From: Zymomonas sp.
GTDB taxonomy: Bacteria > Pseudomonadota > Alphaproteobacteria > Sphingomonadales > Sphingomonadaceae
Length of the DNA: 32,143 nt
Assembly: GCA_027489105.1 (NCBI GenBank)
Contig: JAIYAJ010000573.1
Location: 1 to 32,143 of the forward strand
Direction of reading: 5' to 3'
Part shown: positions 980 through 21,422 of the stretch, piece after piece
Position numbering within the stretch: position 1 is the stretch's first letter
Layout of the letters: each line of letters opens with the position of its first letter
Translations under genes and position numbers: made by a program
Notes under the pieces: model-generated
Databases searched by the model: none
Seen by the model: the letters and a program-made list of their open reading frames with translations, nothing else
What the model was told of the DNA's origin: nothing

Positions 980-2185
980 ATGGCGACGATGCTTAAGAGT
1001 GAGGAAGTCGCGATCCCGAGCGCGGAAGATCTGGTCGAGCGGGCGCGTGCAATGATTCCCGTGCTACGCTCGCGCGCGAAGCAGGCGACAGCCGCCCACA
1101 GGATCCCCGACGAAACCATCGCCGAGATGAAGGAGGCCGGCTTCTTCCGCATCCTCCAGCCCAAGCGCTGGGGCGGCTATGAAATGCATCCCAACGTCTT
1201 CTTCTCGGTGCTGAAGGAGATTGCGCAGGGCTGCATGTCGACCGGCTGGGTCTATGGCGTGGTCGGCTGTCATCCCTATGAGCTGGCGCTCTTTTCGGAC
1301 AAGGCGCAGGCCGAAGTCTGGGGCGAGGACACCAGCGTGCTGGTTTCCTCCTCCTATCAGCCGGTCGGCAAGGTCGAGCACGCCGAGGGCGGCTTCTATC
1401 TGTCGGGCCGCTGGGGTTTCTCTTCGGGATCGCAGCATTGCGACTGGGTGCTGCTCGGCTCGCTGGTGCCGCCGAAGAACGAGGGCGATGCGCCCGACAT
1501 GCGCACCTTCCTGGTCCCCCGCAAGGATTACCGGATCGAGGAAACATGGGACACCTTCGGCCTCCAGGGCACCGGTAGCCACGATGTCGTGATCGAGCGG
1601 GCCTTCATTCCCGACTATCGCACCCACCGCGCGGCGGACGGTTTCCTCTGCACCAATCCCGGCCAGAAGGAGAATGGCGCGCCGCTGTTCAGCCTGCCCT
1701 GGGCGCAGATCTTCGTGCGTTCGGTCTCCTCGGCTGCACTCGGCGGTACACGCGCCGCGATCGACGCGGCGATCAAGATCGCCAATGATCGCGTATCGAC
1801 CAACACCGGCAAGGCGTCGAAGACCGACCCCATCCTGATGGCCGCAATCGCCAAGGCGCATGCGCAGCTGCTCGAGATGGAGGCCACGCTGGAGGCCAGC
1901 TTCGACAAGATGATGGCGAAGGCCGATCGCGGCGAGCCGCTCGAAATGTCCGAGCGTGCTCTTTATCGCTACCAGTCTTCGACCGTCGTCCGGCGCTGCG
2001 CCGATCTGGTGGACGAGCTCATGCCGCTGCTGGGTGGCCGGGCGATCTATATGTCCAGCCCGATCATTCAGCCCTGGCTCGACATCAATGCGGCGCGCGC
2101 GCACGTGGCGAACGACCCCAATAATATGGCGGCGGACCTCGTGGGCACGTTGAACGGGCAGGCACCGTCCTTCCTGTTCCTCTGA
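980..2185 (+). CDS. HsaA-like flavin-dependent monooxygenase (acyl-CoA dehydrogenase fold)
   Basis: This 401-residue protein resembles the oxygenase component of two-component flavin monooxygenases such as HsaA, which hydroxylates a phenolic steroid intermediate with reduced flavin from a separate reductase. Supporting segments are GFFRILQPKRWGG (residues 54-66), STGW (87-90), WGFSSGSQHCDWVLLG (145-160) and GLQGTGSHDV (194-203), followed by a helical C-terminal domain ending near HVANDPNNMA, which parallels the HsaA C-terminus. The ATG is preceded by AGGAAA five bases upstream. It is the first gene of an operon encoding the lower meta-cleavage pathway, so its likely role is ortho-hydroxylation of a phenol to a catechol before ring cleavage. 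No reductase partner gene lies in the window. The exact substrate cannot be read from the sequence. Confidence 0.85.
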   Translation: MATMLKSEEVAIPSAEDLVERARAMIPVLRSRAKQATAAHRIPDETIAEMKEAGFFRILQPKRWGGYEMHPNVFFSVLKEIAQGCMSTGWVYGVVGCHPYELALFSDKAQAEVWGEDTSVLVSSSYQPVGKVEHAEGGFYLSGRWGFSSGSQHCDWVLLGSLVPPKNEGDAPDMRTFLVPRKDYRIEETWDTFGLQGTGSHDVVIERAFIPDYRTHRAADGFLCTNPGQKENGAPLFSLPWAQIFVRSVSSAALGGTRAAIDAAIKIANDRVSTNTGKASKTDPILMAAIAKAHAQLLEMEATLEASFDKMMAKADRGEPLEMSERALYRYQSSTVVRRCADLVDELMPLLGGRAIYMSSPIIQPWLDINAARAHVANDPNNMAADLVGTLNGQAPSFLFL

Positions 2186-2215
2186 GTTTTTTCCCAATCG
2201 ACTGGAGGGGTTTCA

Positions 2216-3031
2216 ATGACAGTCGAGTTCGTCCGTACGGCCTATAAGGTCGGCGGAGACTATGAGATCAGCATGGCGGAGGCCGGCTCCGGCCCCGCTG
2301 TCGTGTTCCTGCACGGCAGCGGGCCGGGGGCCTCCGGTGCTTCCAACTTTCGCCTGAATGCGTCGGAGTTCGTGGCTGCAGGCTATCGCGTGCTGCTGCC
2401 CGACCTGATCGGCTATGGTGCGTCGTCGAAGCCCGAAGGAATCGACTATACGCTGCAGCTGTTCACCGACACCGTCCATGACGCGCTGACCCAGGCCGGG
2501 GTGACCTCGGCGGTGTGCGTCGGCAATTCGCTGGGCGGCGGCATCGCGATGCAGCTGGCGTTCGATCATCCGGGCTTCGTCGAGAAGCTGGTGATGATGG
2601 CGCCGGGCTGTATCGAGGAACTGCCCGTCTATTTCGCCATGCCCGGCATTGCGAAGATGAAGTCGAGCTTCGGCAGTCCCGAATTCTCGCTCGATGATCA
2701 GCGGGCGCTTATCACCAACCTCGTCTATGACGCGTCGGTCGTCAGCGACCAGCTCGTCGCCGAGCGCTATGAGGTTGCCCGCACGCAGTCGAAGGACGTG
2801 CTGGCCCGCATGCGGACGCCCAATCTGGCCCCGCGCCTGGGCGAACTGACGATGCCGATCCTCGGCTTCTGGGGTCTGCAGGACGATTTCTGCCCGGTCT
2901 CGGGGGCGCAGCGCTTTCTCGATGCCTGCCCCGATGCGCGCTTCATGACCTTCAACGGCGTGGGCCATTGGGTCCAGGTTGAGCGGGCTGCGGAGTTCAA
3001 TCGCTACACGCTGGCCTTCCTCCATGGCTGA
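2216..3031 (+). CDS. Alpha/beta hydrolase of the meta-cleavage product hydrolase type
   Basis: This 271-residue protein resembles BphD/MhpC/HsaD, which split the carbon-carbon bond of the ring-cleavage product to give an acid and 2-hydroxy-penta-2,4-dienoate. Visible features are the oxyanion-region motif HGSGPGASG (33-41), the nucleophile elbow GNSLGGG with Ser105, a catalytic Asp in WGLQDDF (Asp223 or Asp224) and the catalytic His251 in GVGHWVQVE. GGAGGGG lies five bases before the ATG. The next gene starts inside its last codons, giving an 8-base overlap, so the two are translationally coupled. Context and motif agree on a carbon-carbon hydrolase; the length and nature of the substrate side chain are unknown. 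Confidence 0.88.
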   Translation: MTVEFVRTAYKVGGDYEISMAEAGSGPAVVFLHGSGPGASGASNFRLNASEFVAAGYRVLLPDLIGYGASSKPEGIDYTLQLFTDTVHDALTQAGVTSAVCVGNSLGGGIAMQLAFDHPGFVEKLVMMAPGCIEELPVYFAMPGIAKMKSSFGSPEFSLDDQRALITNLVYDASVVSDQLVAERYEVARTQSKDVLARMRTPNLAPRLGELTMPILGFWGLQDDFCPVSGAQRFLDACPDARFMTFNGVGHWVQVERAAEFNRYTLAFLHG

Positions 3032-3803
3032 CACGACAGTCTGGGCCGAGAGGCTCTATCGCGCACTGCGGGACGGCACCACGCTCGCGCCGATCAGCGG
3101 TCAGGACCCGAGCCTGACGATCGACGATGCCTATGCGATCTCGCTCGGCATCCTCGAACGGCGCCAGGCCGATGGCGAGCGGGTGGTCGGCAAGAAGATC
3201 GGCGTCACCTCCAAGCCCGTGCAGGACATGCTGGGCGTCCACCAGCCCGATTTCGGTTTCCTCACCGATCGGATGTGGATCGACGGTGAGACGATCGACA
3301 TCGCCGCGACGGGGCTCATCCAGCCCCGCGCCGAAGCCGAGATCGCCTTCATCCTGCGCGAACCGCTGAAAGGGCCGGGCGTGACCGCCGAACAGGTGAT
3401 CGCCGCGACCGAGAGCATCGCGCCCTGTTTCGAGATCGTCGACAGCCGTATCGCCGAGTGGAAGATCGGCATCGTCGACACCGTCGCCGACAATGCGTCC
3501 TGCGGCGTGTTCGTGCTGGGCGAGGCCCGCGCCGATCCCCGCGCGCACGACCTGCCTGCGCTGCACGTCACCGTGACCAAGAATGGCGAACCGCTGTCCG
3601 AGGGCTATGGTTCGGCGGTGCAGGGATCGCCGGCGGAAGCGGTGGCATGGCTCGCCAACACGCTCGGCGCTCACGGCGTCACCCTCGAGGCGGGAGACGT
3701 CATCCTGTCGGGATCGCTCGTCCCGCTCGCGCCCGCCAAGGCCGGCGACGTCTTCGAGATGGAATTGCACGGCATCGGGCGCTGCGCCGCCCGCTTCGTC
3801 TAA
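3024..3803 (+). CDS. mhpD: 2-keto-4-pentenoate (2-hydroxypenta-2,4-dienoate) hydratase
   Basis: This 259-residue member of the fumarylacetoacetate-hydrolase-fold hydratases (MhpD/BphH/HsaE type) adds water to 2-hydroxypenta-2,4-dienoate, forming 4-hydroxy-2-oxovalerate. GKKIGVTS lies at 57-64. Acidic residues Glu104 and Glu106 (in PRAEAEIAF) and Glu137 (in CFEIVDSR) fit the metal ligands of MhpD. The frame is open further upstream to 2979, but the ATG at 3024 gives the usual N-terminus and overlaps the hydrolase stop by 8 bases. No separate ribosome binding site is obvious, which suits coupling to the hydrolase. Confidence 0.9.
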
Positions 3804-3813
3804 GGAACAAACT

Positions 3814-4752
3814 ATGGCACGTCTCAAGGCGGCGATCATCGGGTCGGGCAATATCGGCACCGACCTGATGATGAAGATGATCAAATATCCGCAGAATATG
3901 GAGCTGGCGGCGGTGGTCGGCATCGACGCCGCGTCCGAGGGGCTGGCGATGGCGCGCGAGCATGGCATCGCGACTACCCATGAAGGGCTGGAGGGGCTGC
4001 GCAAGCTGCCCTGCTATCCGGAGATCGGCATCGTTTTCGACGCGACCTCGGCCTATGCCCACAAGGTGCATGACGAGGCGCTGCGCGCCGACGGCAAGCA
4101 GATCGTCGACCTGACCCCGGCGGCGATCGGCCCGTTCACCGTGCCGCCGGTCAACATGGAAGCGCATCTCGACCAGCCCAACGTCAACATGGTCACCTGC
4201 GGCGGCCAGGCGACGATCCCGATGGTCGCGGCGGTCAGCCAGGTGGCGAAGGTCCATTATGCCGAGATCGTCGCGTCGGTCTCGTCGCGTTCGGCCGGCC
4301 CCGGCACGCGGGCCAATATCGACGAGTTCACCCGCACCACCGCGCGCGCGATCGAAGCGGTCGGCGGTGCCACGCAGGGCAAGGCGATCATCATCCTCAA
4401 CCCGGCCGAACCGCCGATGATCATGCGCGACACGGTGTTTACTCTGTCGGAAGGCGCGGACGAAGAGACGATCCGCGCCTCGGTCGAGAAGATGGTGGCC
4501 GAGGTGCAGAAATATGTGCCCGGCTATCGCCTGAAGCAGCAGGTGCAGTTCGAGCGCTTCGGCGACAACAACAAGCTCCGCATCCCCGGACGCGGCGAGT
4601 TCACCGGCATCAAGACCTCGATCTTCCTCGAGGTCGAGGGCGCCGGCGACTATCTGCCCAGCTATTCGGGCAATCTGGACATCATGACCGCTGCCGCGAA
4701 GGCGACGGGCGAGCTGCTTGCGAAGCGCCGCCTGGCCGCGATGGCCGCCTGA
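3814..4752 (+). CDS. mhpF: Acetaldehyde dehydrogenase (acylating)
   Basis: This 312-residue protein is the CoA-dependent aldehyde dehydrogenase of meta-cleavage pathways (MhpF/DmpF/BphJ/HsaG). It converts aldehyde, NAD and CoA to acyl-CoA and works in a channelling complex with the aldolase encoded next. It has an N-terminal nucleotide-binding motif GSGNIGTD (10-17) and the catalytic Cys129 in MVTCGGQAT, and matches the family along its whole length. The start at 3814 is preceded by AAGGAACA, which overlaps the hydratase stop. A longer open frame to 3583 overlaps the hydratase and is not credible. Confidence 0.95.
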
Positions 4753-4765
4753 GGGGAGACGCGAT

Positions 4766-5809
4766 ATGGCGGGTTTCGACGTAGAGGCGGGCAACAAGCT
4801 CTATATCCAGGACGTGACGCTGCGCGACGGCATGCACGCGATCCGGCACATGTACGGGATCGACCATGTCCGCGCGATCGCAAAGGCGCTCGATGCGGCC
4901 GGTGTCGACGCGATCGAGGTCGCCCATGGCGACGGGCTGTCGGGCGCCAGCTTCAATTATGGCTTCGGCGCACACACCGACTGGGAATGGCTCGAGGCTG
5001 TCGCCGACGTGCTGGAAAAGTCGGTGCTCACCACCCTGATCCTGCCGGGGGTCGGCACGGTCGAGGAACTGAAGCGCGCCTATGATCTGGGCGTGCGATC
5101 GGTCCGCGTGGCGACGCACTGCACCGAGGCCGACGTGTCGAAGCAGCATATCGGCATCGCCCGCGATTTGGGCATGGACGTGTCAGGCTTCCTCATGATG
5201 AGCCACATGATCGAGCCCGAGGCGCTGGCGCAGCAGGCGCTGCTGATGGAGAGCTATGGCGCTCAGTGCGTCTATGTCACCGACAGCGGCGGGGCGCTCG
5301 ACATGGACGGCATCCGCGCGCGCTTCCAGGCCTATGACCGGGTGCTCAAGCCCGAGACCGAGCGCGGCATGCATGCGCACCACAATCTCTCGCTGGGCGT
5401 CGCCAACTCGATCGTCGCCGCGCAGGAAGGCGCGGTTCGCATCGACGCCAGCCTGGCCGGCATGGGTGCGGGCGCGGGCAATGCGCCGCTCGAAGTCTTC
5501 ATCGCCGCCGTCGACCGCAAGGGCTGGAACCATGGCTGCGACGTCATGGCGCTGATGGACGCGGCGGAGGATCTGGTTCGTCCGTTGCAGGACCGCCCGG
5601 TGCGGGTCGATCGCGAGACGCTCGCGCTCGGCTATGCCGGGGTCTATTCTTCCTTCCTGCGCCATGCGGAGAAAGCGGCGGAAACCTATGGCCTCGACAC
5701 GCGCGCCATCCTCGTCGAACTCGGCCGCCGGCGGATGGTCGGCGGGCAGGAGGACATGATCGTCGACGTTGCGCTCGACATGCTCAAGGAAAGAGAGACC
5801 GCGCAATGA
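4766..5809 (+). CDS. dmpG: 4-hydroxy-2-oxovalerate aldolase
   Basis: This 347-residue DRE-TIM metallolyase (DmpG/BphI/MhpE/HsaF) cleaves 4-hydroxy-2-oxoacids to pyruvate and an aldehyde, which passes to the partner dehydrogenase. VTLRDGMH at residues 17-24 carries the Arg20, Asp21 and His24 active-site group, and GMHAHHN (201-207) carries the two metal-binding histidines at 203 and 205. GGGGAG just upstream supports the ATG at 4766. Its stop overlaps the start of the flavoprotein gene as ATGA (5806-5809), so that gene belongs to the same transcript. Confidence 0.95.
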
Positions 5810-7290
5810 CCAGCCCCTCGCTCCATCGGCCGCTTGGCGTGGGCGAGGTCGCCCGGTGGGACATCGAGACCGACGTCGCGGTAATCGGCTTCGGCGCGTC
5901 GGGCGCCTGCGCGGCGCTCGAAGCTGCGCGCGGCGGTGCGTCGGTCACGCTGTTCGAGATGGGATCGGGCAGCGGCGGCGCCTCGGCGCTGTCGGGCGGG
6001 GAAATCTATATCGGCGGCGGCTCCGACGTGCAGAAGGCAGCCGGCTTCGAGGACAGCCCGGAGGCGCTGGCCGCCTATCTCAAGATGGCGGGCGGGCCCG
6101 ATGCGGACCATGCGAAATGCGATCTCTACGCGTCCGAGAGCCTGTCGCACTATGACTGGCTGAAGGCGCAGGGCGTGCCGTACAAGGGCACCTTCGTTCC
6201 CGGCAAGATCATCGAGCCGGCGACCGACGACACGCTGATATGGTCGGGCAGCGAGGAAGCCTGGCCCTTCTGCGAGCAGGCCCAGCCGGCGCCGCGCGGC
6301 CATGTAATCCAGTTCGAGGGCTGGGGCGGGGGCCGCAAGCTCGTCGACATATTGGAGCGCAACGTGCGCGAGGCCGGGGTCGACGTGCGCGTCGACGCGC
6401 GGGTCGTGTCGCTGATCGCCGATGGCCCCGCGATCGTCGGGCTGGTCGTGCGGATCGACAACAAGGACCATTATGTCCGCGCGGGCGCCACCGTGATCTG
6501 CACGGGCGGCTTCTGCATGAATCAGGACATGCTCCGCCGCTATGCGCCCGAGGCGATCAAGCTCGCCAACCCGATCGGCGAGAATGACAATGGATCGGGC
6601 ATATTGATGGGCATGGGCGCCGGCGGCGACGCGATCCACATGGACGAGTTCTTCACCACCTGTCCGTGGATCATGCCCGAAAGCCTGGTGAAGGGGATCT
6701 TCGTCAACCGCAACGGACAGCGGTTCATGAACGAGGATTGCTATCATGGCCGCGTCAGCCGCACGATGATCGACCAGCCGGGCGACCGCGTCTGGCTGCT
6801 TGTCGACAATGCGATCTTCGCGCGGCCGATCGAACTGGCCCGGATCGACATCGCGGCGGTCGGCGAGACCTGGGAAGAGGTCGAGGCCGAACTGGGCCTG
6901 CCGGCGGACACGCTGAGCGCCACGGTGCGGACCTTCAACCGCTATGCGGCCGAAGGGCAGGACCCCGTCTGGCACAAGTCGGCCAAATGGCTGAAGGTGC
7001 TCGACGAGCCGCCCTTCGCGGCGCTCGAACTGAACTTCGCGACCAGCTATTTCTCCTTCTTCACGCTGGGCGGGCTCTCGACGCTGCCGACGGGCGAAGT
7101 GCTCGATCGCGGTGGCGAGCCGGTACCGGGCTTGTTTGCGGCGGGACGCGCGACCTCCGGGCTGCCGCGCTGGGGTCATGGCTATAGCTCGGGCATGAGC
7201 CTGGCCGACTGCACCTTCTTCGGGCGCAAGGCGGGTACGTCGGCAGCGGCTTCGGCCAAGGCGTCGCAGCGGGTCGCCGAGCCGGCCTGA
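5806..7290 (+). CDS. FAD-dependent oxidoreductase, ketosteroid dehydrogenase/fumarate reductase flavoprotein family
   Basis: This 494-residue flavoprotein has an N-terminal FAD-binding motif VIGFGASG (26-33) with acidic Glu51 at the end of the second strand, then [16 protein letters not shown] (57-72). It ends in the family's second FAD contact, [11 protein letters not shown] followed by [19 protein letters not shown]. The superfamily includes ketosteroid delta-1 and delta-4(5-alpha) dehydrogenases, which desaturate cyclic ketones, and fumarate/urocanate reductases. It overlaps the aldolase gene by four bases. An enzyme that dehydrogenates an alicyclic ketone would make sense if the substrate has a saturated ring. 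Which reaction it catalyses is not decided by the sequence. Confidence 0.75.
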
Positions 7291-8433: not shown

Positions 8434-8456
8434 ACCACAAATGAGGAGGGTGCCGC

Positions 8457-9380: not shown

Positions 9381-11302
9381 TGAGCACGCTCAACGCCACC
9401 TCCGGGGACAGCGTCTATCAGGTCGAATCCCTGATCGCCGAGGACATCGACGCCTATCTGAAGATCCACCAGCACAAGACGCTGCTGCGCTTCATCACCT
9501 GCGGCTCGGTCGACGACGGCAAGTCGACGCTGATCGGCCGCCTGCTTTACGACAGCAAGATGATCTTCGAGGATCAGCTCGCCGCGCTCGAGGCCGACAG
9601 CAAGCGCGTCGGCACGCAGGGGCAGGAGATCGACTTTGCGCTGCTCGTCGACGGCCTCGCCGCCGAGCGCGAGCAGGGGATCACGATCGACGTCGCCTAT
9701 CGTTTCTTCGGGACCGAGAAGCGCAAGTTCATCGTCGCCGACACCCCCGGCCATGAACAATATACGCGCAACATGGTCACCGGCGCCTCGACCGCCGACC
9801 TCGCCGTCATCCTGATCGATGCGCGCAAGGGCGTGCTGACGCAGACCCGGCGGCATAGCTATCTCGCCCATCTGATCGGCATCCGGCACATCGTGCTGGC
9901 GGTCAACAAGATGGATCTGGTCGGCTACGACCAGAAGATCTTCGACGACATCGTCGCCGACTATCGTGCCTTCGCCGATTCGATCGGCATCAGCGCGTTC
10001 GTGGCCATGCCGATTTCCGGCTTCAAGGGCGACAACATCACCGGCCTGTCGCCGAACACGCCCTGGTATACCGGCCCGGCGCTGATGGAGCATCTGGAGA
10101 CCGTCGAGGTCGACCAGGTGTCGGACCAGGACAAGCCGTTCCGCATGGCGGTGCAGTGGGTCAATCGCCCGAACCTCGATTTCCGGGGCTTCTCGGGTCT
10201 GATCGCGACCGGCACCGTCAAGCCCGGCGACAAGATCCGCGTGCTGCCCTCGGGCAAGACCTCGACGGTGGCGCGTGTCGTGACCCTCGACGGCGATCTC
10301 GACGCGGGCGTCGCCGGCCAGTCGGTGACGATCACGCTCGAAGACGAGATCGACTGCTCGCGCGGCGACGTCATCGCTGCCGCCGACAATCCCCCACAGG
10401 CCGCCGACCAGTTCGAGGCCACGATCGTGTGGATGTCGGACGAGGAGATGCTGCCGGGCCGACCCTATTGGCTCAAGCTCGGCGCGCAGACCGTGTCGGC
10501 GAGCATCCAGGCGCCCAAATATCAGGTCAACGTCAACACGATGGAGCATCTGGCGGCGAAGACGCTGGAGCTCAACGCGATCGGCGTGGCCAATCTGTCG
10601 ACCGACCGCAGCCTGGTGTTCGAGCCCTATGGCGAGAACCACTCGCTGGGCGGCTTCATCCTGATCGACAAGATCACCAATGCGACCGTCGCGGCCGGCA
10701 TGCTGCACTTCTCGCTGCGTCGTGCGCAGAATGTCCATTGGCAGGCGACCGACATTTCGCGCGAACATCACGCCGCGATGAAGCACCAGAAGCCGGTCGT
10801 GCTGTGGTTCACCGGTCTGTCGGGTGCGGGCAAGTCGACCATCGCCAACATCGTCGAGAAGAAGCTGGCGCGGATGAACCGCCACACCTTCCTCCTCGAC
10901 GGCGACAATGTGCGCCATGGCCTGAACAAGGATCTGGGCTTCACCGATGCCGACCGCGTGGAGAATATCCGCCGGGTGGGCGAGGTCGCCAAGCTGATGA
11001 CCGACGCCGGCCTGATCGTGATCACCGCCTTCATCTCGCCCTTCCGGGCGGAGCGCGACATGGTGCGCTCGATGATGGCGCCGGGCGAGTTCATCGAGGT
11101 CCACATCGACACCCCGCTGTCCGATGCCGAATCCCGCGACGTAAAGGGCCTCTATGCGAAGGCACGCTCGGGCCAGCTGAAGAACTTCACCGGCATCGAC
11201 AGTCCCTATGAGGCGCCCGAGGACCCTGAGATCCGGATCGACACCACCGCGATGACTGCCGAGGAAGCGGCCGAGGAGATCATCCGCAGGCTCATCCCAT
11301 GA
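9380..11302 (+). CDS. cysNC: Bifunctional sulfate adenylyltransferase subunit 1 / APS kinase
   Basis: This 640-residue fusion has an EF-Tu-like GTPase half (CysN; P-loop GSVDDGKST at 42-50, then [12 protein letters not shown] and NKMD) and a C-terminal APS kinase (CysC; P-loop GLSGAGKST at 479-487, then [15 protein letters not shown]). With CysD it turns sulfate into PAPS in two steps. Such CysN-CysC fusions are common in alphaproteobacteria. It starts one base into the cysD stop and overlaps cysQ by four bases (ATGA), so cysD, cysNC and cysQ form one translationally coupled unit. Confidence 0.97.
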
Positions 11303-12057
11303 GCGGTGCGATGACCGACGCCGAACTGGCGGCGCACCTCGCCGAGGTCGCGGGCAAGCTGCTGCTCGAAGTACGGGCCAGCGGCATGTTCCCGGCCAAG
11401 GCGCTGGGCAAGGCGGGGGATCAGACCGCCAACCAGTTCCTCTGCCATGCTTTGCGGGCGCAGCGTCCTGACGACGGGCTGCTCTCGGAAGAGGAAAAGG
11501 ACAATGCCGAGCGGCTGGCGCAGTCGCGGGTGTGGATCGTCGATCCCGTCGACGGCACCCGCGAATATGGCGAGGAGCGCGCCGACTGGGCGGTGCATGT
11601 CGGTCTTGCGATCGACGGCGTCGCCACGGTTGGCGCGGTCGCGTTGCCGGGGCTGGACGTCGTGCTGCGGACCGACCGGCCGCAGCCTCTGCCGCCCGCC
11701 AACCAGCCGTTGCGGATGCTCGTCAGCCGCACGCGGCCGGCGCGCGAGGCGGTCGAAGTCGCCGAACGGCTCGGCGCCGAACTGGTGGCGATGGGTTCGG
11801 CCGGGGCCAAAGCGATGGCGGTGGTGCGCGGCGAGGCCGACATCTACCTCCACACCGGCGGGCAATATGAGTGGGACAGCTGCGCACCGGTGGCGGTCGC
11901 CGCCGCTTATGGCCTGTTCTGCTCGCGGGTCGACGGATCGCCGCTGCGCTACAATCAGGAAGATGTCTATCTGCCCGACCTGATCATCTGCCGGCCCGAA
12001 CTGGCCGAAGCCGTGCTGCGCGAGGCGCGGGCGGTGCAGGCGGGCGAGCCGGCCTGA
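11299..12057 (+). CDS. cysQ: 3'(2'),5'-bisphosphate nucleotidase CysQ
   Basis: This 252-residue member of the lithium-sensitive phosphatase family removes the 3' phosphate of PAP (and PAPS), relieving inhibition and controlling PAPS pools. It has the metal-site motif DPVDGT (82-87), acidic residues LSEEE (62-66) and WDSCAP (192-197). The N-terminal motif is AGDQTAN rather than the enterobacterial DGSPVTEAD; this resembles, from memory, the mycobacterial CysQ type. It overlaps cysNC by four bases and completes the PAPS cassette. An alternative start at ATG 11311 is possible. Confidence 0.92.
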
Positions 12058-12067
12058 CGAAATCGGT

Positions 12068-12096
12068 GGCGACCGTCCGGGAAACCGGCGGTCGCC
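12068..12096. terminator. Hairpin terminator between convergent cysQ and tetR
   Basis: GGCGACCG (12068-12075), a bulged T, CCGG, a GAAA tetraloop, CCGG and CGGTCGCC (12089-12096) form a 12-base-pair stem with one bulge. It lies in the 42-base gap between two convergent genes and is symmetrical enough to serve both. The U tract is weak, as is common in GC-rich genomes. Confidence 0.65.
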
Positions 12097-12099
12097 GTC

Positions 12100-12714
12100 C
12101 TATTGCTCCGTGCGGGTGGCGACCCCGTCGACGACGAGGCGCGTGACGCTCTCCACATAGTCGGCGGGCGGCGTCTCGAGGCTGAACAGCGCGCGGTAGA
12201 GCAGCGTGCCCACCATCATGTCGAACAGCGTGTCGGAATCGCAGCTTGCCGCGATCAGGCCCGCCGCCTTTCCTTTGCCTACGATCGACGCCATGCGGGC
12301 GCGGGCGTCGCACTCGCTGTCATGCTGCAACTCGGCCTGCAACGCGCGGTCGCCCTGCGTCGAGGCGATGACGCCCACCGCCGCCGCGCCAATGTCGGCA
12401 CGGCGATAGCGCTCGAAAATCTGTCCAGCGAGCAGCGCGATCTGCGCCTTCAGACCGTCCCGGTCGATCACGTCGGGGAAAGGATCGCCGCCCCCGGTGG
12501 CGATCTCGTTCGCCAGATGCGCCTTGGTCGGCCAGCGCCGATAGATCATCGAGCGCGGAATGTCGGTCATCTGCGAAATGCTGTCGAAGGCGAGCGCATG
12601 ATAGCCGCCCTCGGCGAGCAGCGTCCGCGCCGCGTCGATGATCCGCCGGTCGATCTCCGCATCGCGCGGTCGCCCCCGGCTGCGCGTCGTCACCTTCTCG
12701 CCCGTCATGTCCAT
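12100..12714 (-). CDS. TetR-family transcriptional repressor
   Basis: This 204-residue protein has an N-terminal TetR helix-turn-helix: RRIIDAARTLLAEGGY (23-38), then DSISQMTDIPRSMIYRRW. A helical ligand-binding and dimerisation domain follows, resembling the TetR C-terminal family with the LLYRALF segment. It is divergent from the amidohydrolase gene across a 140-base gap and so probably represses that operon in the absence of a ligand. Met1 and Met3 are both possible starts; neither has a strong ribosome binding site. Confidence 0.85.
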   Translation of the reverse strand: MDMTGEKVTTRSRGRPRDAEIDRRIIDAARTLLAEGGYHALAFDSISQMTDIPRSMIYRRWPTKAHLANEIATGGGDPFPDVIDRDGLKAQIALLAGQIFERYRRADIGAAAVGVIASTQGDRALQAELQHDSECDARARMASIVGKGKAAGLIAASCDSDTLFDMMVGTLLYRALFSLETPPADYVESVTRLVVDGVATRTEQ

Positions 12715-12780
12715 CGCTGCACGCTGCCACGCTGATGCAGGGCAAGTCCAGCGCGCGTCACCGACTCGCTTGCTTTTTTC

Positions 12781-12795
12781 GGGACACTATGTACC
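12781..12795. promoter_or_regulatory. Imperfect inverted repeat, possible TetR operator
   Basis: GGGACA-CTA-TGTACC is an inverted repeat with five of six matching pairs in the tetR-amidohydrolase divergent gap (12715-12854). It follows a T-rich stretch and includes TATGTA, a weak -10-like hexamer. Only the position and partial symmetry support an operator role. Confidence 0.25.
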
Positions 12796-12854
12796 TTTTT
12801 TATCGAGAGCCGCCATTCGATGCGAAAAGCACGGGCGGGACAGGAGGGAATGCC

Positions 12855-14540
12855 ATGCTCGATCTGGTGATACGCAATGGCCTGGTCTGTGACGGCAGCG
12901 GAGCGCCGGCCTTCAGGGGCGATGTCGCGGTGCGCGACGGCCGCATCGTTGCGGTCGGCGAAATCCAGGGCGAGGCCCGCGAGACGGTCGACGCGGGTGG
13001 GCGCGTCATCGCACCCGGCTTCATCGATCCGCACACCCATTATGACGCGCAGCTGGTCTGGGACGGACAGGCGCAGCCCTCGCTCGAACATGGCGTGACC
13101 ACGGTGATGCCGGGCAATTGCTCGCTCAGCCTGGCCCCGCTCAAGGCCGAGCATCGCGACCTGCTCGGCGCGACCTTCCGCAAGATCGAGGAGATGCCGA
13201 AAAACGCCTTCGATGCGGGTCTGACCTGGTCGTGGGAGAGCTTCGCCGACTATCTGGCGGCGATCAAGCCACGCCTCGGCGTCAATGTCGCGCCGCTGGT
13301 CGGGCACAGCCTGCTGCGGCTGTGGGTGATGGGGCTCGAAGCGCGCGAGCGGGCGGCGACCGATGCCGAGATCACCCAGATGCGCGCGCTGCTCGCCGAA
13401 TGCCTCGACGCCGGCGCGGTCGGGATGAGCGGCTCCTGGGTCGATATCGATCATGAAAACCGTCCGGTGCCTGCACGCATGGCCGAACCGGCCGAGCTCG
13501 ACGCCCTGTGCGCGACACTCGGCAAGAAGGGCGGCATCCTGCAGATGGTCCCCGAATTCTGGGATGCCGACATGCTCTGCGCGCGGATCGACCTGCTGTC
13601 GGACCTGTCGCGCAAGCACAGCATCTCGACGACCTTCTCCCCATTGTTCGACAGTAACGCCTCGCCCGAACTGGTCGGCATCGCGCTCGACCGGATCCGT
13701 CTGCAGACCGCGCATGGTGCGCGCGTGGTGCCGCAGATGCAGACGCGGCCGATCGACCTGTCCTTCGATCTCGGTGCGCCGATGTCGACCTTCGCGACCC
13801 TGCCCGGCTGGTGGGCGATGACGCTGCTGCCGCATGACGAAAAGCTCGCTGTGTTGCGCGATCCGGAGCGGCGGCAGGCGCTGGCGGCGGAGATGGACAA
13901 TTTCTTCATGCCGATCGGCCTGCAGATCGACTTCGCCGACGCCTATGTGAAGCGGATGGGCACCCCCGATCCGGCGCTGATGGGCCGGCGCGTGGGCGAT
14001 CTTGCGGAGGAGCGCGGCTGCCATATCGCCGAGGTGATCATCGACATCGCGCTGGCCGATAATCTCGCCACCTCCTACGGGCTCGATGCGATCGGCCATA
14101 ATGACGATGCCAAGATCGCCAAGATGCTGGCCGACCCATTGATCGGCATCGGCGCGGGTGACGGCGGCGCGCATGTCACCAATTTCGCGACCTATGGCGA
14201 CACCGGCTATCTGTTCAGCCGCTATGTTCGCGGCTTCGGCGCGATGCCGCTGGAGACCGCGGTGCGCAAGCTGACCCATGATGTGGCGCAGGTCTGGGGC
14301 TTGCGCAACCGTGGCCTGTTGCGGCCGGGCTACGCGGCCGACATCGTGCTGTTCGATCCCGCAACGATCGATCGCGGCCCCGAGATCGCGGTCGAGGACC
14401 TGCCCGCGCCGGGCTTCCGCTACATCCGCCGCGCGAGCGGCATCGACCGCGTGTTCGTCAACGGGGTGCAGGCCTATAGCCGGGAGGCCGGCTATGCCCC
14501 GGCGCGCGCCGGCCAGATCACGGAAAGGCAGAGTGCATGA
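12855..14540 (+). CDS. Amidohydrolase, N-acyl-D-amino-acid deacylase family
   Basis: This 561-residue protein begins with a small beta domain (LVIRNGLVCDGSGAP), then the metal-binding DPHTHYD (59-65) and PGNCS with Cys89, the position where D-aminoacylases carry a metal-ligand cysteine. Further segments are GHSLLRLWVMG, GAGDGGAHVTNFATYG and a C-terminal LRPGYAADIVLFDP. Known relatives hydrolyse N-acyl-D-amino acids, N-acyl-D-glutamate or cyclic amides, in the cytoplasm. GGAGGG six bases before ATG 12855 fixes the start, though the frame is open upstream to 12735. It overlaps the next small gene by ATGA. In this context it may open an amide or lactam of the imported compound; the substrate is unknown. 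Confidence 0.82.
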   Translation: MLDLVIRNGLVCDGSGAPAFRGDVAVRDGRIVAVGEIQGEARETVDAGGRVIAPGFIDPHTHYDAQLVWDGQAQPSLEHGVTTVMPGNCSLSLAPLKAEHRDLLGATFRKIEEMPKNAFDAGLTWSWESFADYLAAIKPRLGVNVAPLVGHSLLRLWVMGLEARERAATDAEITQMRALLAECLDAGAVGMSGSWVDIDHENRPVPARMAEPAELDALCATLGKKGGILQMVPEFWDADMLCARIDLLSDLSRKHSISTTFSPLFDSNASPELVGIALDRIRLQTAHGARVVPQMQTRPIDLSFDLGAPMSTFATLPGWWAMTLLPHDEKLAVLRDPERRQALAAEMDNFFMPIGLQIDFADAYVKRMGTPDPALMGRRVGDLAEERGCHIAEVIIDIALADNLATSYGLDAIGHNDDAKIAKMLADPLIGIGAGDGGAHVTNFATYGDTGYLFSRYVRGFGAMPLETAVRKLTHDVAQVWGLRNRGLLRPGYAADIVLFDPATIDRGPEIAVEDLPAPGFRYIRRASGIDRVFVNGVQAYSREAGYAPARAGQITERQSA

Positions 14541-14767
14541 GCGTTTCGCTTCCCCCGCGCCGTCGCTTCATCCAGCCGCAGAGCGGCGACGACTGGCCGA
14601 GCATCGCCGCGCGGGTGATGCCCGACACGCCGGTCGAGGCGGCGATCGAGCAGCTCAAGAGCTGGAATCTGTTCCTCGTCTTCCGCCCGGCCAGCGTGAT
14701 CACGCCATCGGATATCTTGTTCATCGAGCCGCCGCAGGCCTCGGCCGGCCAAGCTGGCGGGGCATGA
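14537..14767 (+). CDS. LysM-like mini-protein
   Basis: This 76-residue protein is mostly one LysM-like unit. GDDWPSIAARVMPD (about 17-30) and a helix ending LKSWN are followed by VITPSDILFIEPP (54-66), a spacing typical of LysM domains (GD, IA, N, P, L..I). It has no signal peptide or membrane segment, so it would remain in the cytoplasm, unlike peptidoglycan-binding LysM proteins. It overlaps the amidohydrolase by four bases and lies two genes before the COQ4-like gene. A cytoplasmic scaffold or substrate-handling role is possible but not shown. The LysM assignment is from pattern reading only. Confidence 0.6.
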   Translation: MSVSLPPRRRFIQPQSGDDWPSIAARVMPDTPVEAAIEQLKSWNLFLVFRPASVITPSDILFIEPPQASAGQAGGA

Positions 14768-14777
14768 GCGGCAGGAC

Positions 14778-15029
14778 GTGAGCCACGGCGCGGTGATCGA
14801 GGCGCTGTGCCTGACCCCGACCCATGACGGGGAGGCGGCGCTGGTCGTGACGCTGCGCTTCGCCAATGGCGGCCGGTCGAACGTGCAGGTCGATGCCGAC
14901 GGCATGCGCCGGGTGATGGCCCGCGCCGGGGTGAGCAATGCGCTCGATCTGGTCGGTCGGAGCTGGGCCGTGCTCGAAATTGAGGAACCGCCCTTCACGG
15001 GCTGGACGGAGAGGAATGACAGGGCATGA
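14778..15029 (+). CDS. Small conserved-context protein of unknown function (83 residues)
   Basis: I do not recognise this protein. It is 83 residues, with alternating beta strands (AVIEALCLTPT, AALVVTLRFANGGRSNVQVD) followed by a helix (MRRVMARAGVSNALDLVG) and a last strand (WAVLEIEEPPF), which suggests a compact alpha/beta fold. It starts at GTG 14778 with AGGA close upstream; the only nearby ATG (14764) is in another frame and stops after five codons. It overlaps the COQ4-like gene by four bases (ATGA at 15026-15029), so its product is probably made in step with COQ4-like protein and may assist it. Confidence 0.65.
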   Translation: MSHGAVIEALCLTPTHDGEAALVVTLRFANGGRSNVQVDADGMRRVMARAGVSNALDLVGRSWAVLEIEEPPFTGWTERNDRA

Positions 15030-15859
15030 ACGTCGAAACCAATCTCGCGGCCGACGAAGCCGCCTATCTCATGGGCGCCGTCGATCCGGTGACGTCGAGC
15101 GTGCTGATCAGCAATTCCAAATATCTCAACAGTCCGCTGTTCCGCGATGTCTATGCGCAGATGGGGTTGAAGCGCGACGGTCACGACCTGCCCGATGCCT
15201 ATCTGATTCCCACTCTGTCGCGCGCGATGGGCGAGGTGGTCGATCCGGTCCGAACGATGGAGTTGCTCGCGGCCGAAAAGGCGCGGCTGCCCGAATTCGC
15301 GGCATGGCTCGACGAGCGCTTCGTCTCCGACTTCACCGCCGAACAGACCGCGCATTGCGCGCCGGGCACGCTGGGTGCGCGCATCCACGCATTCATCGCG
15401 CAAAGCGGCTATCAGATCGACTTCCTGTTCAAGGATGCGCCGCGCAACGATTATGAATTCCTGCTCAAGCGGCGCGCACAGAATCACGACATCGAACATA
15501 TGGTCACCGGCCTCTGCCCGAGCCAGGTGGGCGAGATCGCGCTGATCGTCGCCAACACGGTCGCCAACGCCAATTATTTCTCGACCGACTTCGCGCATGA
15601 GCTGAATCTTTACGGCACGGTGCTGATGTCGACCTCGCTCAGCCGCGCGGGGCTCCATTATCCGAAAGCGCTGCCGTCGCTGCTCGAGGGCTTCGCGCGC
15701 GGCCATGCGCTCGGCGCCAAGCAGAAGAAGCCCCTGTTCATGGTCCGCTGGGAGGATCATCTCGACCGCCAGATCGACGATATCCGCGCCGAGTTCGGGT
15801 TCGAGGACGGTCCCGAGCCCGGCTATTGGGACTGGATCTTCAAGGTTTTCAAAGGCTGA
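15026..15859 (+). CDS. COQ4-family protein in a catabolic setting
   Basis: This 277-residue protein carries the COQ4 signature HDxxH-x11-E: His154, Asp155, His158 and Glu170 within NHDIEHMVTGLCPSQVGEIAL. The upstream GTLGARIHAFIAQSGY segment and an all-helical C-terminal half also fit, and the length matches COQ4 (about 265 residues). COQ4 takes part in ubiquinone synthesis and has been tied to removal of the C1 carboxyl of the ring precursor with hydroxylation, using a metal. Here the neighbours are an amidohydrolase, two tiny proteins, NTF2-like proteins, a TonB receptor and a dehydrogenase rather than quinone genes. The inference is a catabolic paralogue acting on an aromatic acid or quinone-like substrate; a plain ubiquinone role remains possible. 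Confidence 0.82.
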   Translation: MNVETNLAADEAAYLMGAVDPVTSSVLISNSKYLNSPLFRDVYAQMGLKRDGHDLPDAYLIPTLSRAMGEVVDPVRTMELLAAEKARLPEFAAWLDERFVSDFTAEQTAHCAPGTLGARIHAFIAQSGYQIDFLFKDAPRNDYEFLLKRRAQNHDIEHMVTGLCPSQVGEIALIVANTVANANYFSTDFAHELNLYGTVLMSTSLSRAGLHYPKALPSLLEGFARGHALGAKQKKPLFMVRWEDHLDRQIDDIRAEFGFEDGPEPGYWDWIFKVFKG

Positions 15860-15885
15860 CCGCTGCAGGACGGGAGAGGAAAGAC

Positions 15886-16323
15886 ATGACGACGACCACC
15901 GCGCTGAAGGGCCCCGAAGGGCTGTGCTGCAGCTATGGGCAGGCGATGCTAGACAAGGATGGCCGCGCCATCGCCGGCCATTATCTGTTCCCCTATATTT
16001 CCTTCACGCTGGGCCATGTGCACAGCTTCGAGGACCGCGCGACCGCCGATGCCGCCTGCACCGACCAGGTCGCCCGTTTCGGCCGCACCGGCGTGGGAAC
16101 GGACATCCGCCTGATCGACTACAAGGTCGTGCCGGTGTCGGCCGATGCGGCGCTCTGCCATCTGACCTGGGAAGTCTATCCGATCGACGGCACCCCCGGC
16201 TGGTCGTGGACCAATGTCTATGGCTATCGCCGCAAGGGCGATGAGGAAGGCTTCGAGTTCAACGTATCGGACAATGAGATCGGCGAACTGCTGAAGCGCT
16301 TTCCCGACTTCTACAGTCTCTGA
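15886..16323 (+). CDS. NTF2/SnoaL-like small protein
   Basis: This 145-residue cone-fold protein has a pattern typical of NTF2-like proteins: a helix with AMLDKDGRAIAGHYLFPYISF (split over residues 20-41), then the strand-rich stretch IRLIDYKVVPVSADAALCHLTWEVYP and a closing acidic tail. Family members are small enzymes (isomerases, dehydratases, cyclases) or binding proteins. GGGAGAGGAAAG before ATG 15886 fixes the start; the upstream extension to 15826 overlaps the COQ4-like gene. No catalytic residue can be assigned. Confidence 0.65.
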   Translation: MTTTTALKGPEGLCCSYGQAMLDKDGRAIAGHYLFPYISFTLGHVHSFEDRATADAACTDQVARFGRTGVGTDIRLIDYKVVPVSADAALCHLTWEVYPIDGTPGWSWTNVYGYRRKGDEEGFEFNVSDNEIGELLKRFPDFYSL

Positions 16324-16337
16324 TCGCATCGCGCTGC

Positions 16338-16361
16338 GCGGCCCGGTCAAAGCCGGGCCGC
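16338..16361 (+). terminator. Hairpin terminator after the NTF2-like gene
   Basis: GCGGCCCGG (16338-16346), loop TCAAAG, CCGGGCCGC (16353-16361) form a perfect 9-base-pair GC stem 14 bases after the stop. Only a short T-containing tail (TTGCC) follows. It would end the amidohydrolase to NTF2 operon before the second tetR gene. Confidence 0.65.
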
Positions 16362-16396
16362 TTGCCGATCCTGTGGGCCATGGCTACGCAAGGTCG

Positions 16397-17116
16397 ATGC
16401 CCCGCACGAGCACCAGCCCTGTCGACGAAGTACAGGCTTCACCGCCCAAGCGACTGACGTCGAAGGGGCTCCGGACGCGGTCGGCGATTCTCGATGCGGC
16501 CGAGCGCCAATTTTCCGAACGCGGCTTCGAGGGTGTTTCGCTGCGCCAGATCATGGACGAGGCCGGCGTCCAGATGGGGCAGCTCCAGCATTATTTCCCG
16601 ACCAAGGAAGACGTCTTCGTCGGGGTGCTTGACCGGCGCCTGGCCCAGGTCACGGCGGACTATGTCGCGGCCGTCGAGGAGATGGAGGCCCAGGTCGATG
16701 CCGGTCAGGCGGACCTCCGCCTTGTCATACGCGCCGTGATGTCGGTTTCGCGCGCCTGGCTGTCGGCGGAGGATGCCGGCCTTCATCGCTATCTTCGCAT
16801 GCTGGCGCTCAGCACGATGAGCTTCGACCAGCCGGACTATGTGCGCAGCCACGGACAATCCTTCCAGCCGCTCAACGAACGCATCATCGGACAGCTGGCG
16901 CGGCTCTATCCGCACGCCTTCCCCGAACGCACGCGGGCGGCCTATCATCTGATCGAAGCCAATCTGCTATCGGTCTACGCTAATGTCGACTCGCTGCTCG
17001 CGCGGTCCCGCATCGCGCGCTCGCCCGAGGCTATCGCCGATCTCTACGACCATCTTGAGGATTTCCTTGTCGGCGGCATCGACGCGGTCCTGCGTCAGAG
17101 CGACATGCCAAACTAG
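16397..17116 (+). CDS. TetR-family transcriptional regulator
   Basis: This protein of about 239 residues has an N-terminal TetR helix-turn-helix (RSAILDAAERQFSERGFEG, then SLRQIMDEAGVQMGQLQHYF, then PTKEDVF) and a larger ligand-binding domain than the first TetR here. A GTG at 16373 would add eight residues; ATG 16397 is preferred because AAGG lies just before it, but this is uncertain. The gene points toward the TonB receptor gene, and a strong inverted repeat between them (17147-17164) is the natural operator. It likely controls receptor expression in response to the substrate or its CoA ester. Confidence 0.85.
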   Translation: MPRTSTSPVDEVQASPPKRLTSKGLRTRSAILDAAERQFSERGFEGVSLRQIMDEAGVQMGQLQHYFPTKEDVFVGVLDRRLAQVTADYVAAVEEMEAQVDAGQADLRLVIRAVMSVSRAWLSAEDAGLHRYLRMLALSTMSFDQPDYVRSHGQSFQPLNERIIGQLARLYPHAFPERTRAAYHLIEANLLSVYANVDSLLARSRIARSPEAIADLYDHLEDFLVGGIDAVLRQSDMPN

Positions 17117-17146
17117 CTCTTTGCACAGCTGACGCCTTTCCCGGAA

Positions 17147-17164
17147 ATGGTGCAGATGCACCAT
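17147..17164. promoter_or_regulatory. 18-base inverted repeat, probable TetR operator
   Basis: ATGGTGCA-GA-TGCACCAT has two perfect 8-base arms around two bases. It lies 30 bases after the tetR stop and 48 bases before the TonB receptor start, a usual operator position and size for TetR proteins. TTGCAC at 17121-17126 could be a -35, but the -10 is unclear. Confidence 0.6.
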
Positions 17165-17211
17165 AGATGACGCCGAACCGCCAGAAGCGGTCGGACTATG
17201 GGAGAGAGAGC

Positions 17212-19434
<2,223 letters not shown>

Positions 19435-19482: not shown

Positions 19483-19504
19483 CGAACAGCAAAGGATGTA
19501 TCGC

Positions 19505-19951
19505 ATGACCGGCATGCCGATGGAGGTGCGCGTCGCCCTTCAGGACCTGATGACCGCCTATTGCTATGCGGTCGACCGCCTCGAAGATGTGGACGGGCTG
19601 CTCGACCTGTTCACCGAGGATGCCGTGCTCGATTTCTCGGCGATCGGCCTGCCGGTGATGAACGGCCATGACGAGATGAAGGCCTTTTTCGACCGCGTCT
19701 TCGCCGACATGAGCCACCATGCGCATTACATCACCAATTTCCGCCCGAACGCCTATGACGGTGCGACCGCGTCGATGAGCGCCTATGTGATCGGCCTGGG
19801 CCGCGCGAAGGACGGCAACAGCGTCGAGGTGCAGGTGCAGTACCGTTTCGATGCGGTGGAGACGCCCGCTGGCTGGAAGTGCCGCCGCTATTCGATGTTC
19901 TCGATGATGCCGCTGCCGGGTTCGCTCGCCGAAATTCACGCGCCCCGCTGA
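19505..19951 (+). CDS. NTF2/SnoaL-like protein
   Basis: This 148-residue protein has the SnoaL_4 type pattern: LQDLMTAYCYAVDRLED (11-27), LLDLFTEDAVLDFSAIG, FFDRVFADMSHHAHYITNF and a closing WKCRRYSMFSM strand. The HHxHYITN segment with its histidines and the early Tyr-Asp pair resemble active-site residues in dehydratase or isomerase members such as scytalone dehydratase relatives, but the match is general. AAAGGA lies nine bases before ATG 19505; the ATG at 19496 is too close to it. A role in processing the imported compound is inferred from position. Confidence 0.75.
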   Translation: MTGMPMEVRVALQDLMTAYCYAVDRLEDVDGLLDLFTEDAVLDFSAIGLPVMNGHDEMKAFFDRVFADMSHHAHYITNFRPNAYDGATASMSAYVIGLGRAKDGNSVEVQVQYRFDAVETPAGWKCRRYSMFSMMPLPGSLAEIHAPR

Positions 19952-20035
19952 TCCTTCGCTGTCACTAGATCACACCGCCTTCCATAATGGGCGAACATCA
20001 TGAAGGCCGGCGCTGAGCCGGATGAGGAGAGAGAC

Positions 20036-20782
20036 ATGGGCAGGGTAGAAGGCAAGGTCGCGATCATTACCGGCGGCGCGTCGGGGCTCGGTGCCGAGGA
20101 TGCGCGGCTGCTCGCGCGCGAAGGCGCGAAGGTCGTCATCACCGACGTGCAGGACGAACTCGGCGAGCGTATCGCCGCCGAAATCCCCGGTGCGGTCTAT
20201 CTGCACCAGGACGTCCGCAGCGAGGCGCGCTGGGACGAGGTGATCGCCGAGACGATCGCGCGTTTCGGCAAGCTCGACATCCTCGTCAACAATGCCGGCC
20301 TCGTCCGCTTCGGCACGATAGAGGGGCTGAGCTTCGCCGACTACAAGATCCAGGTCGACGTCATGCTCGACGGCACCTTCCTCGGCTGCAAGGCGGCGAT
20401 CCCGCATATGACCAAGGGCGGCGGCGGATCGATCATCAACATGGCCTCGATCGGCGGCATGATCGGCCTCAGCCAGATCCCCGCCTATGCCGGCGCCAAG
20501 GGCGGGATCATCTCGATGAGCCGCTCGATCGCGATCCACTGCCAGGAGCAGGGCTATCGCATCCGCTGCAACTCGATCGCGCCGGGCGGCATCGAAACCC
20601 CGATGACCGCACAGGCGGTGGCCGAACTCGACGCCGACAGCGCGGGCATGGAGCAGACCCGCAACCACGGCATGGGCAAGCCGATCGACGTCGCCAACCT
20701 GGTCCTGTTTCTCGCGTCGGAGGAATCGCGCCACATTACCGGCACCAACATGGTGATCGATAATGGAGAGACGGTGCGCTGA
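20036..20782 (+). CDS. Short-chain dehydrogenase/reductase
   Basis: This 248-residue classical SDR has the cofactor motif TGGASGLG (12-19), NNAG (85-88), catalytic Ser138 and Tyr151-x3-Lys155. Asp37 at the end of the second strand favours NAD(H) over NADP(H). Such enzymes oxidise a secondary alcohol or reduce a ketone, and many related sphingomonad enzymes act on steroid or alicyclic alcohols. GAGGAGAGAG precedes the ATG at 20036. It is the last gene of the accessory locus before a terminator and the toxin-antitoxin pair. The substrate is unknown. Confidence 0.92.
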   Translation: MGRVEGKVAIITGGASGLGAEDARLLAREGAKVVITDVQDELGERIAAEIPGAVYLHQDVRSEARWDEVIAETIARFGKLDILVNNAGLVRFGTIEGLSFADYKIQVDVMLDGTFLGCKAAIPHMTKGGGGSIINMASIGGMIGLSQIPAYAGAKGGIISMSRSIAIHCQEQGYRIRCNSIAPGGIETPMTAQAVAELDADSAGMEQTRNHGMGKPIDVANLVLFLASEESRHITGTNMVIDNGETVR

Positions 20783-20904: not shown

Positions 20905-21159
20905 ATGGACGTCATCAGCTATTCCGACACGCGCGCCCACCTCAAGGAGGTGATGGACCGCGTCGTGGCCGATCGCGCGCCCATAGTCGTGTCGCGCCAG
21001 AAAGCGGAGTCGGTCGTGATGGTGTCCCTGTCCGATTGGAACGCGATCGAGGAGTCGATGCATCTGCTGTCGACGGAGGCGAACCGCGGTCGTCTGCTGG
21101 CGGCAATACAACAGTTGGATAGCGGCAAGGGCGAGGCGCGCGATCTGATCGAGCCATGA
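20905..21159 (+). CDS. yefM: YefM/Phd-family antitoxin
   Basis: This 84-residue antitoxin has the typical N-terminal DNA-binding dimer domain (MDVISYSDTRAHLKEVMDRV, continuing with APIVVSRQ and VVMVSLSDWNAIEES) and a C-terminal tail (residues 60-84) that would wrap the toxin. AGGAGAAT lies five bases before the ATG. Its stop overlaps the toxin start as ATGA, the usual arrangement for equimolar or antitoxin-excess synthesis. It should repress its own promoter through the TGTACA repeats just upstream. Confidence 0.93.
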   Translation: MDVISYSDTRAHLKEVMDRVVADRAPIVVSRQKAESVVMVSLSDWNAIEESMHLLSTEANRGRLLAAIQQLDSGKGEARDLIEP

Positions 21160-21422
21160 AGCTCGTCTTCGCCGATGCGGCCTGGGACGACTATCTTCAT
21201 TGGCAGGCCAACGCCCCCAATACGCTGCAGCGCGTCAACGACTTGATAAAGGAATGCCAGCGCAGCCCCTTCAAGGGGACCGGTAAGCCCGAGCCCTTGA
21301 AGGGGGACCTGAAGGGCTGGTGGTCGCGGCGCATCACGCTGGAGGACCGCCTCGTCTATCGTGTCACCGGCAGCCCGCCGGACCAGCAGCTGGAAATCGC
21401 CCAGTGCCGATTCCACTACTGA
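21156..21422 (+). CDS. yoeB: YoeB-family mRNA interferase toxin
   Basis: This 88-residue protein is a YoeB toxin, an endoribonuclease of the RelE fold that cuts mRNA in the ribosome A site. The E. coli catalytic residues are all present: Glu46 in KPEPLKG, Arg65 in LEDRLVY and the terminal His87-Tyr88 (CRFHY). It therefore looks active. It follows yefM with a four-base overlap, and its stop is followed by the tRNA-Gly terminator on the opposite strand. Confidence 0.95.
   Translation: MKLVFADAAWDDYLHWQANAPNTLQRVNDLIKECQRSPFKGTGKPEPLKGDLKGWWSRRITLEDRLVYRVTGSPPDQQLEIAQCRFHY

Follow-up and report, generated by a model that had tools for sequence, protein, structure and literature searches.

A COQ4 relative multiplied beside an unusual amidohydrolase and import genes in sphingomonads suggests a second role in the breakdown of hydrophobic ring compounds

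Why should a member of the COQ4 family, whose known place is in coenzyme Q synthesis, be encoded among genes for the import and breakdown of ring compounds? In humans COQ4 is a disease gene, and the coenzyme Q step to which it belongs is among those that went longest without an assigned enzyme (PMC9774615). The gene considered here lies in a stretch of 32,143 nucleotides from Zymomonas sp., analysed as a whole and referred to as the window. An earlier note on this DNA had proposed that the protein removes a carboxyl group from an imported aromatic acid. The protein itself, its partners, its distribution and the chemistry that it may perform are considered in turn.

The COQ4-like protein and its clade

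The COQ4-like gene (15026..15859, forward strand) encodes 277 amino acids with an HDIEH-x11-E site at residues 154-170. Its product scores 34.8 bits against PF05019, for which the Pfam gathering score is 22.9, in an alignment that covers residues 106-261 only. The COQ4 fold is present and the metal motif complete, which confirms the earlier assignment to the COQ4 family with an intact metal-binding site. The HD-xx-H-x11-E motif is found in 119 of 120 COQ4 homologues among the matches listed, and H154, D155, H158, and E170 are invariant in all 35 COQ4-like proteins paired with an amidohydrolase. Two solved homologues from Nostoc, Alr8543 (PDB 6e12) and Npun02000094 (3msq), exhibit 17-22% identity to the window protein. 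The title of 6e12 names a complex with oleic acid and magnesium, and Mg2+ sits at the motif in a solved Nostoc homologue, according to PMC9774615. With the COQ4 of coenzyme Q biosynthesis (human, yeast, ancestral), the window protein has in common the PF05019 match, the fold of the solved homologues and the HD-xx-H-x11-E motif. Unlike these enzymes, members of its clade display a consensus N-terminal block (SSVLxSxSKYLNNP-xRD), have catabolic neighbours, are accessory and are often present in multiple copies; their identity to general COQ4 proteins is only 15-20%.

Of the 165 motif-bearing sequences, 129 were kept for a tree once near-identical ones had been removed; from the 240 homologues listed, every eighth had entered the set. 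In this quick maximum-likelihood tree, where support is SH-aLRT without bootstrap and some branches are long, the window protein falls inside a clade of 87 of the 129 rows (SH-aLRT 98, stem length 0.97), with 38 general COQ4 rows outside it and 4 rows intermediate. It does not group with general COQ4, so that the separate clade predicted earlier is borne out; the separation is from general bacterial COQ4, since eukaryotic COQ4 was left out of the tree. The clade has three parts, named C4a, C4b, and C4c in this analysis. The motif reads mostly HDIEHM[VI]TGF in C4a, HDIEHMVTGLxPSxVGE and relatives in C4b, to which the window belongs, and HDLEHIVCGGGFD and similar in C4c, while general bacterial COQ4 has HDLWHVLTGYGRDGLGE or similar.

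The amidohydrolase partner, the operon and its surroundings

Upstream of the COQ4-like gene and on the same strand lie an amidohydrolase gene, AMI (12855..14540; Amidohydro_3, D-aminoacylase-like, PF07969, E 1.6e-25), and two genes for small proteins, sm76 (14537..14767) and sm83 (14778..15029). AMI and sm76 overlap by 4 nt, sm76 and sm83 are 10 nt apart, and the end of sm83 shares 4 nt with the start of the COQ4-like gene. Downstream, again on the forward strand, a small protein of no known family (15886..16323; family members in 5 loci, window included) is followed by a TetR regulator (16397..17116; PF00440, E 6.5e-14), a TonB-dependent receptor (17167..19434; PF00593, PF07715), a SnoaL_4 protein of NTF2-like type (19496..19951; PF13577, E 3.7e-21) and a short-chain dehydrogenase/reductase (SDR; 20000..20782; PF13561, E 1.4e-57). 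The product of 15886..16323, counted as NTF2-like in the earlier note, has no Pfam or NCBIfam match. A second, divergent TetR regulator (12100..12714, reverse strand; PF16859, PF00440) belongs to a family present in 7 loci, window included. At 20905-21422, two small overlapping genes resemble by eye a Phd/YefM-YoeB toxin-antitoxin pair.

Regarding the small proteins, sm76 has no Pfam match in 7 members; its model (pLDDT 76) has a predicted beta-alpha-alpha-beta arrangement, and no PDB fold match was found at E<=0.001. A LysM-like identity, suggested by eye, was rejected on these two negative results. No family was found for sm83, and its likeness to cyanuric acid amidohydrolase (weak best match, E 0.024) or Cyt-b5 (weak match, E 0.056) was not retained. 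In Sphingobium sp. TomTYG64, AMI (637 aa) carries a relative of sm76 as its C-terminus. Both small genes lie close to AMI and to the COQ4-like gene not only in the window but also in seven other lineages (L003, with sm76 fused, L006, L007/L008, L009, L010, L012, and L150; in L012, sm76, sm83, and the amidohydrolase are on the opposite strand). That they travel with the COQ4-like gene, as the earlier note supposed, holds for part of the window's own subclade.

The best PDB match of AMI is the D-aminoacylase 1m7j (E 6.3e-47). With D-aminoacylase and N-acyl-D-glutamate deacylase (1m7j, 3gip), the AMI partner shares an HxH, the cysteine of a GNC and a late Asp. The alignment with 1m7j places H60 and H62, C89, and D436 at the HxH, the bridging Cys and the catalytic Asp of D-aminoacylase; these four residues, H151 and H440 are invariant in all 35 amidohydrolase partners. 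The partners appear to differ from D-aminoacylase, which has two second-site His ligands in the stretch matching AMI 152-389, in that no invariant His occurs between residues 152 and 389 in the 35 sequences, although phmmer leaves most of this stretch unaligned to 1m7j. It follows that the AMI partner may be a single-metal enzyme and need not be an amidase, and the partners as a group are possibly a one-metal subfamily, judging from sequence.

The association of the two genes is recurrent, and in the counts that follow the amidohydrolase belongs to a single D-aminoacylase-like family, that of AMI. Among 49 de-duplicated loci, a set without L065, the window and 15 near-identical loci and with genes called by a home-made codon-usage caller, an amidohydrolase lies within 5 kb in 37, within two genes in 32, and upstream on the same strand in 30, while 12 have none within 5 kb. 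In 20 genomes reached via the scan loci described below, 78 of the 81 COQ4 matches were used, three from G002, a near-copy of G003, being left out. Of the 70 low-scoring matches, 44 have an amidohydrolase within 5 kb and 26 do not, against 1.4 expected with uniform gene placement and among the amidohydrolase matches listed (114 rows, C-terminal pieces and weakest rows left out). On the same terms, 0 of the 8 high-scoring matches have one, 45 bits serving as a stand-in for the general type; one of the eight (G008:C13:13033) is inside the catabolic clade in the tree. In 24 further genomes, which are those of the 31 clade-positive Sphingomonadaceae genomes (see below) that lie outside the first set and some of which may hold scan loci, 43 of 79 clade copies have an amidohydrolase within 5 kb (1.6 expected, again with uniform placement), 42 within 2 kb, and 36 none within 5 kb; every genome has at least one pair. 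In the companion test, 0 of 10 general-type COQ4 genes, picked by score among the PF05019 matches listed, have an amidohydrolase within 5 kb. Around general-type COQ4, no amidohydrolase of this family was found in 20 control regions (19 readable, as L144 gave no genes), whose genes came from the same home-made caller; in several of these regions the motif did not pick out the COQ4 gene itself.

The recurrent amidohydrolase neighbour anticipated in the earlier note is therefore far above chance in two genome sets, but the word "always" does not stand: the predictions on clade and neighbourhood apply to half to three quarters of the copies, and a linked amidohydrolase is evidently dispensable for the presence of the COQ4-like gene. 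Pairs with a gap under 2.5 kb were reduced from 69 to 35 by removing those over 85% alike. Of these, 30 are on one strand, with a median gap of 30 nt, and the divergence of the partners is correlated (Mantel r 0.46; 5 of 5000 permutations as high), a signal that may be partly due to three window-type pairs. Distinct amidohydrolase lineages pair with distinct COQ4-like lineages.

As to the wider surroundings, 23 of the 49 loci have a TonB receptor within 5 kb, 23 have an SDR and 21 an HTH regulator; three of the control regions contain TonB genes as well. Genes are often arranged as HTH regulator, amidohydrolase, C4a, and TonB receptor, followed on the opposite strand by C4c, AtuA, and a FAD_binding_2 protein. 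C4c-type genes repeatedly adjoin AtuA-family genes (L002, L035, L038, L039, L042, L045, L148, L153, and L158), and those of L148 and L153 are also near acyl-CoA gene families. Upstream of the COQ4-like operon, the window harbors a ring-cleavage cluster (980..7290, forward strand) with an HsaA-like monooxygenase, an HsaD/BphD-like hydrolase, a 2-oxopent-4-enoate hydratase, an acetaldehyde dehydrogenase, a 4-hydroxy-2-oxovalerate aldolase and a FAD-binding protein of PRK07121 type, itself weakly like 3-ketosteroid dehydrogenases; the HsaA, HsaD, hydratase, and ketosteroid-dehydrogenase matches are below the NCBIfam cut-offs and the other three above. The catabolic setting supposed earlier is thereby substantiated by a lower pathway of ring cleavage in the same window, and this setting fits the degradation of a ring compound via a catechol. 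Relatives of the HsaA-like and HsaD/BphD-like genes (about 70% DNA identity) lie about 9 kb from the COQ4-like gene in TomTYG64, where that gene adjoins an extradiol dioxygenase and a hydrolase. Of the relatives mapped, Rhizorhabdus and TomTYG64 have ring-cleavage genes near the COQ4-like gene, and the others show no such linkage. Between its two gene groups the window has a sulfate-activation set at 8457-12057 (cysD, cysN/C-like, and cysQ-like, with cysN/C assigned by eye). A sulfotransferase-family gene is found in six COQ4-like loci (L001, L003, L013, L015, L026, and L037).

Distribution and the question of ubiquinone

Clade members were found by a scan of genome contigs with a single peptide pattern, HDI[ED]H[ML][VI]T, which therefore favours C4a and C4b over C4c. 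The 60 loci obtained come mostly from named sphingomonads, among them Croceicoccus estronivorus, Sphingobium estronivorans, and Chol11, together with a few MAGs that have no finer placement than Alphaproteobacteria, Rhodospirillales, or Pseudomonadota and a single weak match in Halieaceae. The clade profile matches 31 of 298 Sphingomonadaceae genomes (E<=1e-25), of which 29 carry at least two copies, the copy numbers being lower bounds with at most 8 candidates scored per genome; copies also reside on plasmids of Novosphingobium and Sphingobium. Among 240 genomes drawn from the whole class, the profile matches one, G001. This Rhizorhabdus MAG is the closest relative, its contig L006 matching window 5000-19070 at 92% DNA identity, which makes a related Rhizorhabdus the most likely source of the window. 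A second COQ4, as asked for in the earlier note, was looked for in relatives: in G001 the clade profile hits every one of the five COQ4-family matches, four of which are beside an amidohydrolase, and there is no UbiD match.

PF05019 matches occur in 169 of the 298 Sphingomonadaceae genomes and in 21 of the 240 from the class, leaving 129 Sphingomonadaceae with none. UbiD (PF01977) is matched in 13 of the 298 and absent from 285; three of the UbiD genomes are without a COQ4 match, and 126 of the 298 lack both. In these 126 genomes, the COQ4-family and UbiD searches give no C1-decarboxylation enzyme of ubiquinone. Sphingomonadaceae make ubiquinone-10, hence a COQ4-family gene is not an apparent general requirement for it there. 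Judged by distribution, a ubiquinone role of the COQ4-like gene in the window is unlikely, and with the position in the tree this identity was set aside. According to PMC10626278, Zymomonas is without both ubiD and ubiN. The same source describes the decarboxylative hydroxylase UbiN of Rhodobacter capsulatus, a UbiD-independent C1 route in an alphaproteobacterium that relies on a flavin monooxygenase and not on a COQ4-family protein. The general-type COQ4 genes of six Sphingomonadaceae (L132-L137) stand in a conserved row of gene families, which includes an acyl-CoA dehydrogenase and an acetyl-CoA acetyltransferase, going by how members of these families are annotated in L002 and L004. In view of this row, even general-type genes may not be ubiquinone genes.

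Possible chemistry and competing explanations

The COQ4-like gene very probably is an accessory, catabolic gene coupled to the amidohydrolase. How the two proteins may act can be pictured as follows. A hydrophobic ring compound would enter via the TonB receptor and be hydrolysed by the amidohydrolase, exposing a carboxylate. This product would then sit in the helical hydrophobic pocket of the COQ4-like protein, where a divalent metal with H154, D155, H158, and E170 as its ligands would serve to split off CO2, yielding a phenol or hydroquinone for nearby ring-hydroxylating and ring-cleaving enzymes. Such a two-step conversion, hydrolysis to a carboxylate and then decarboxylation, is the most economical reading of a clade that keeps motif and fold, has a distribution at odds with ubiquinone synthesis and has gained a metallohydrolase partner; which step comes first, what the substrate is and that CO2 is lost are what we infer. 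In a reconstructed animal (ancestral) pathway, COQ4 uses Zn2+ to decarboxylate its substrate, and no product is formed when the metal motif is mutated (PMC7615680). By analogy, decarboxylation of an aromatic acid, as proposed earlier, is plausible chemistry, while the assignment of a decarboxylation step to this particular protein is tentative and would sooner prove wrong than right. Taken as a whole, an accessory catabolic paralogue that works with the upstream amidohydrolase by this mechanism is the explanation towards which we lean, with modest confidence. An identity of only 15-20% to general COQ4 proteins and the copies that have no amidohydrolase within 5 kb tell against it.

The strongest competitor, possible though rather unlikely, keeps the joint action of the two proteins, but the metal would serve a reaction other than decarboxylation, such as hydration, isomerisation, retro-aldol cleavage, or oxygenation, and the target would be the ring or side chain of a steroid- or terpenoid-like compound. 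Neighbours of the clade include KshA-type Rieske oxygenases, a P450 with ferredoxin, FAD_binding_2 flavoproteins, AtuA, and SDRs, and the clade is carried by steroid degraders such as the bile-salt degrader Chol11. It is also present in C. estronivorus, S. estronivorans, and Novosphingobium sp. ES2-1, which probably use estrogens, as some of the names imply. D-aminoacylases are among the cholate-upregulated genes of Caenibius tardaugens (PMC12882949), but no link between those genes and a COQ4 neighbour was found, and the main text of that paper does not contain "coq4". Neither "coq4" nor "amidohydrolase" appears in the main text of the paper on the N. tardaugens estradiol cluster or in the passages searched of a bile-acid review (PMC8399759). 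Against such chemistry, decarboxylation is the only demonstrated reaction found for this fold and motif (PMC7615680).

It is improbable, if less so than the explanations that follow, that the COQ4-like protein is a non-catalytic binding or scaffold protein whose part is to offer the amidohydrolase a hydrophobic substrate. For a long time COQ4 itself passed for a scaffold, and this view would agree with the tight pairing of the genes and with the oleic acid and magnesium named in the title of 6e12; a pure binder, in contrast, would not need the four motif residues that are invariant in 35 of 35 proteins. Very unlikely is a mere hitch-hiking of neighbours in shared catabolic islands without functional coupling: several loci are on plasmids and one is near recombinase genes, but an amidohydrolase within 2 kb of 42 of 79 copies and the pairing of different amidohydrolase lineages with different COQ4-like lineages argue otherwise. 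Least probable of all is a ubiquinone-biosynthesis COQ4 fallen by chance into a catabolic island, for although it belongs to PF05019 and the C1 step is unassigned in the 285 genomes that have no UbiD match, 129 of the 298 genomes have no COQ4 match, 126 match neither enzyme and the clade is present in 31, mostly in multiple copies and also on plasmids.

No description of a catabolic COQ4 family or of a COQ4-amidohydrolase pairing was found in the open-access literature searched. To return to the preferred reading, a COQ4 relative multiplied beside an odd amidohydrolase and import genes suggests a second job, the breakdown of greasy ring compounds. More speculatively, and at rather long odds, the COQ4 fold of sphingomonads might form a catabolic enzyme family for an undescribed hydrolysis-plus-decarboxylation step on prenylated or polycyclic phenolic lipids, many members having a dedicated one-metal amidohydrolase, so that quinone-ring chemistry would be put to use in degradation; the AtuA (acyclic terpene utilisation) neighbour of C4c would then handle the isoprenoid chain. 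Enzymology with the natural COQ4 substrate is difficult because that compound is so hydrophobic. In a bacterial clade that has a recurrent partner gene and probably a growth substrate, the metal chemistry could be approached through growth tests, gene deletions, and straightforward assays. Such a clade would also give a name to an unassigned step in the sphingomonad degradation of hydrophobic ring compounds, and would warn annotators that not every "Coq4 family" gene is a ubiquinone gene.
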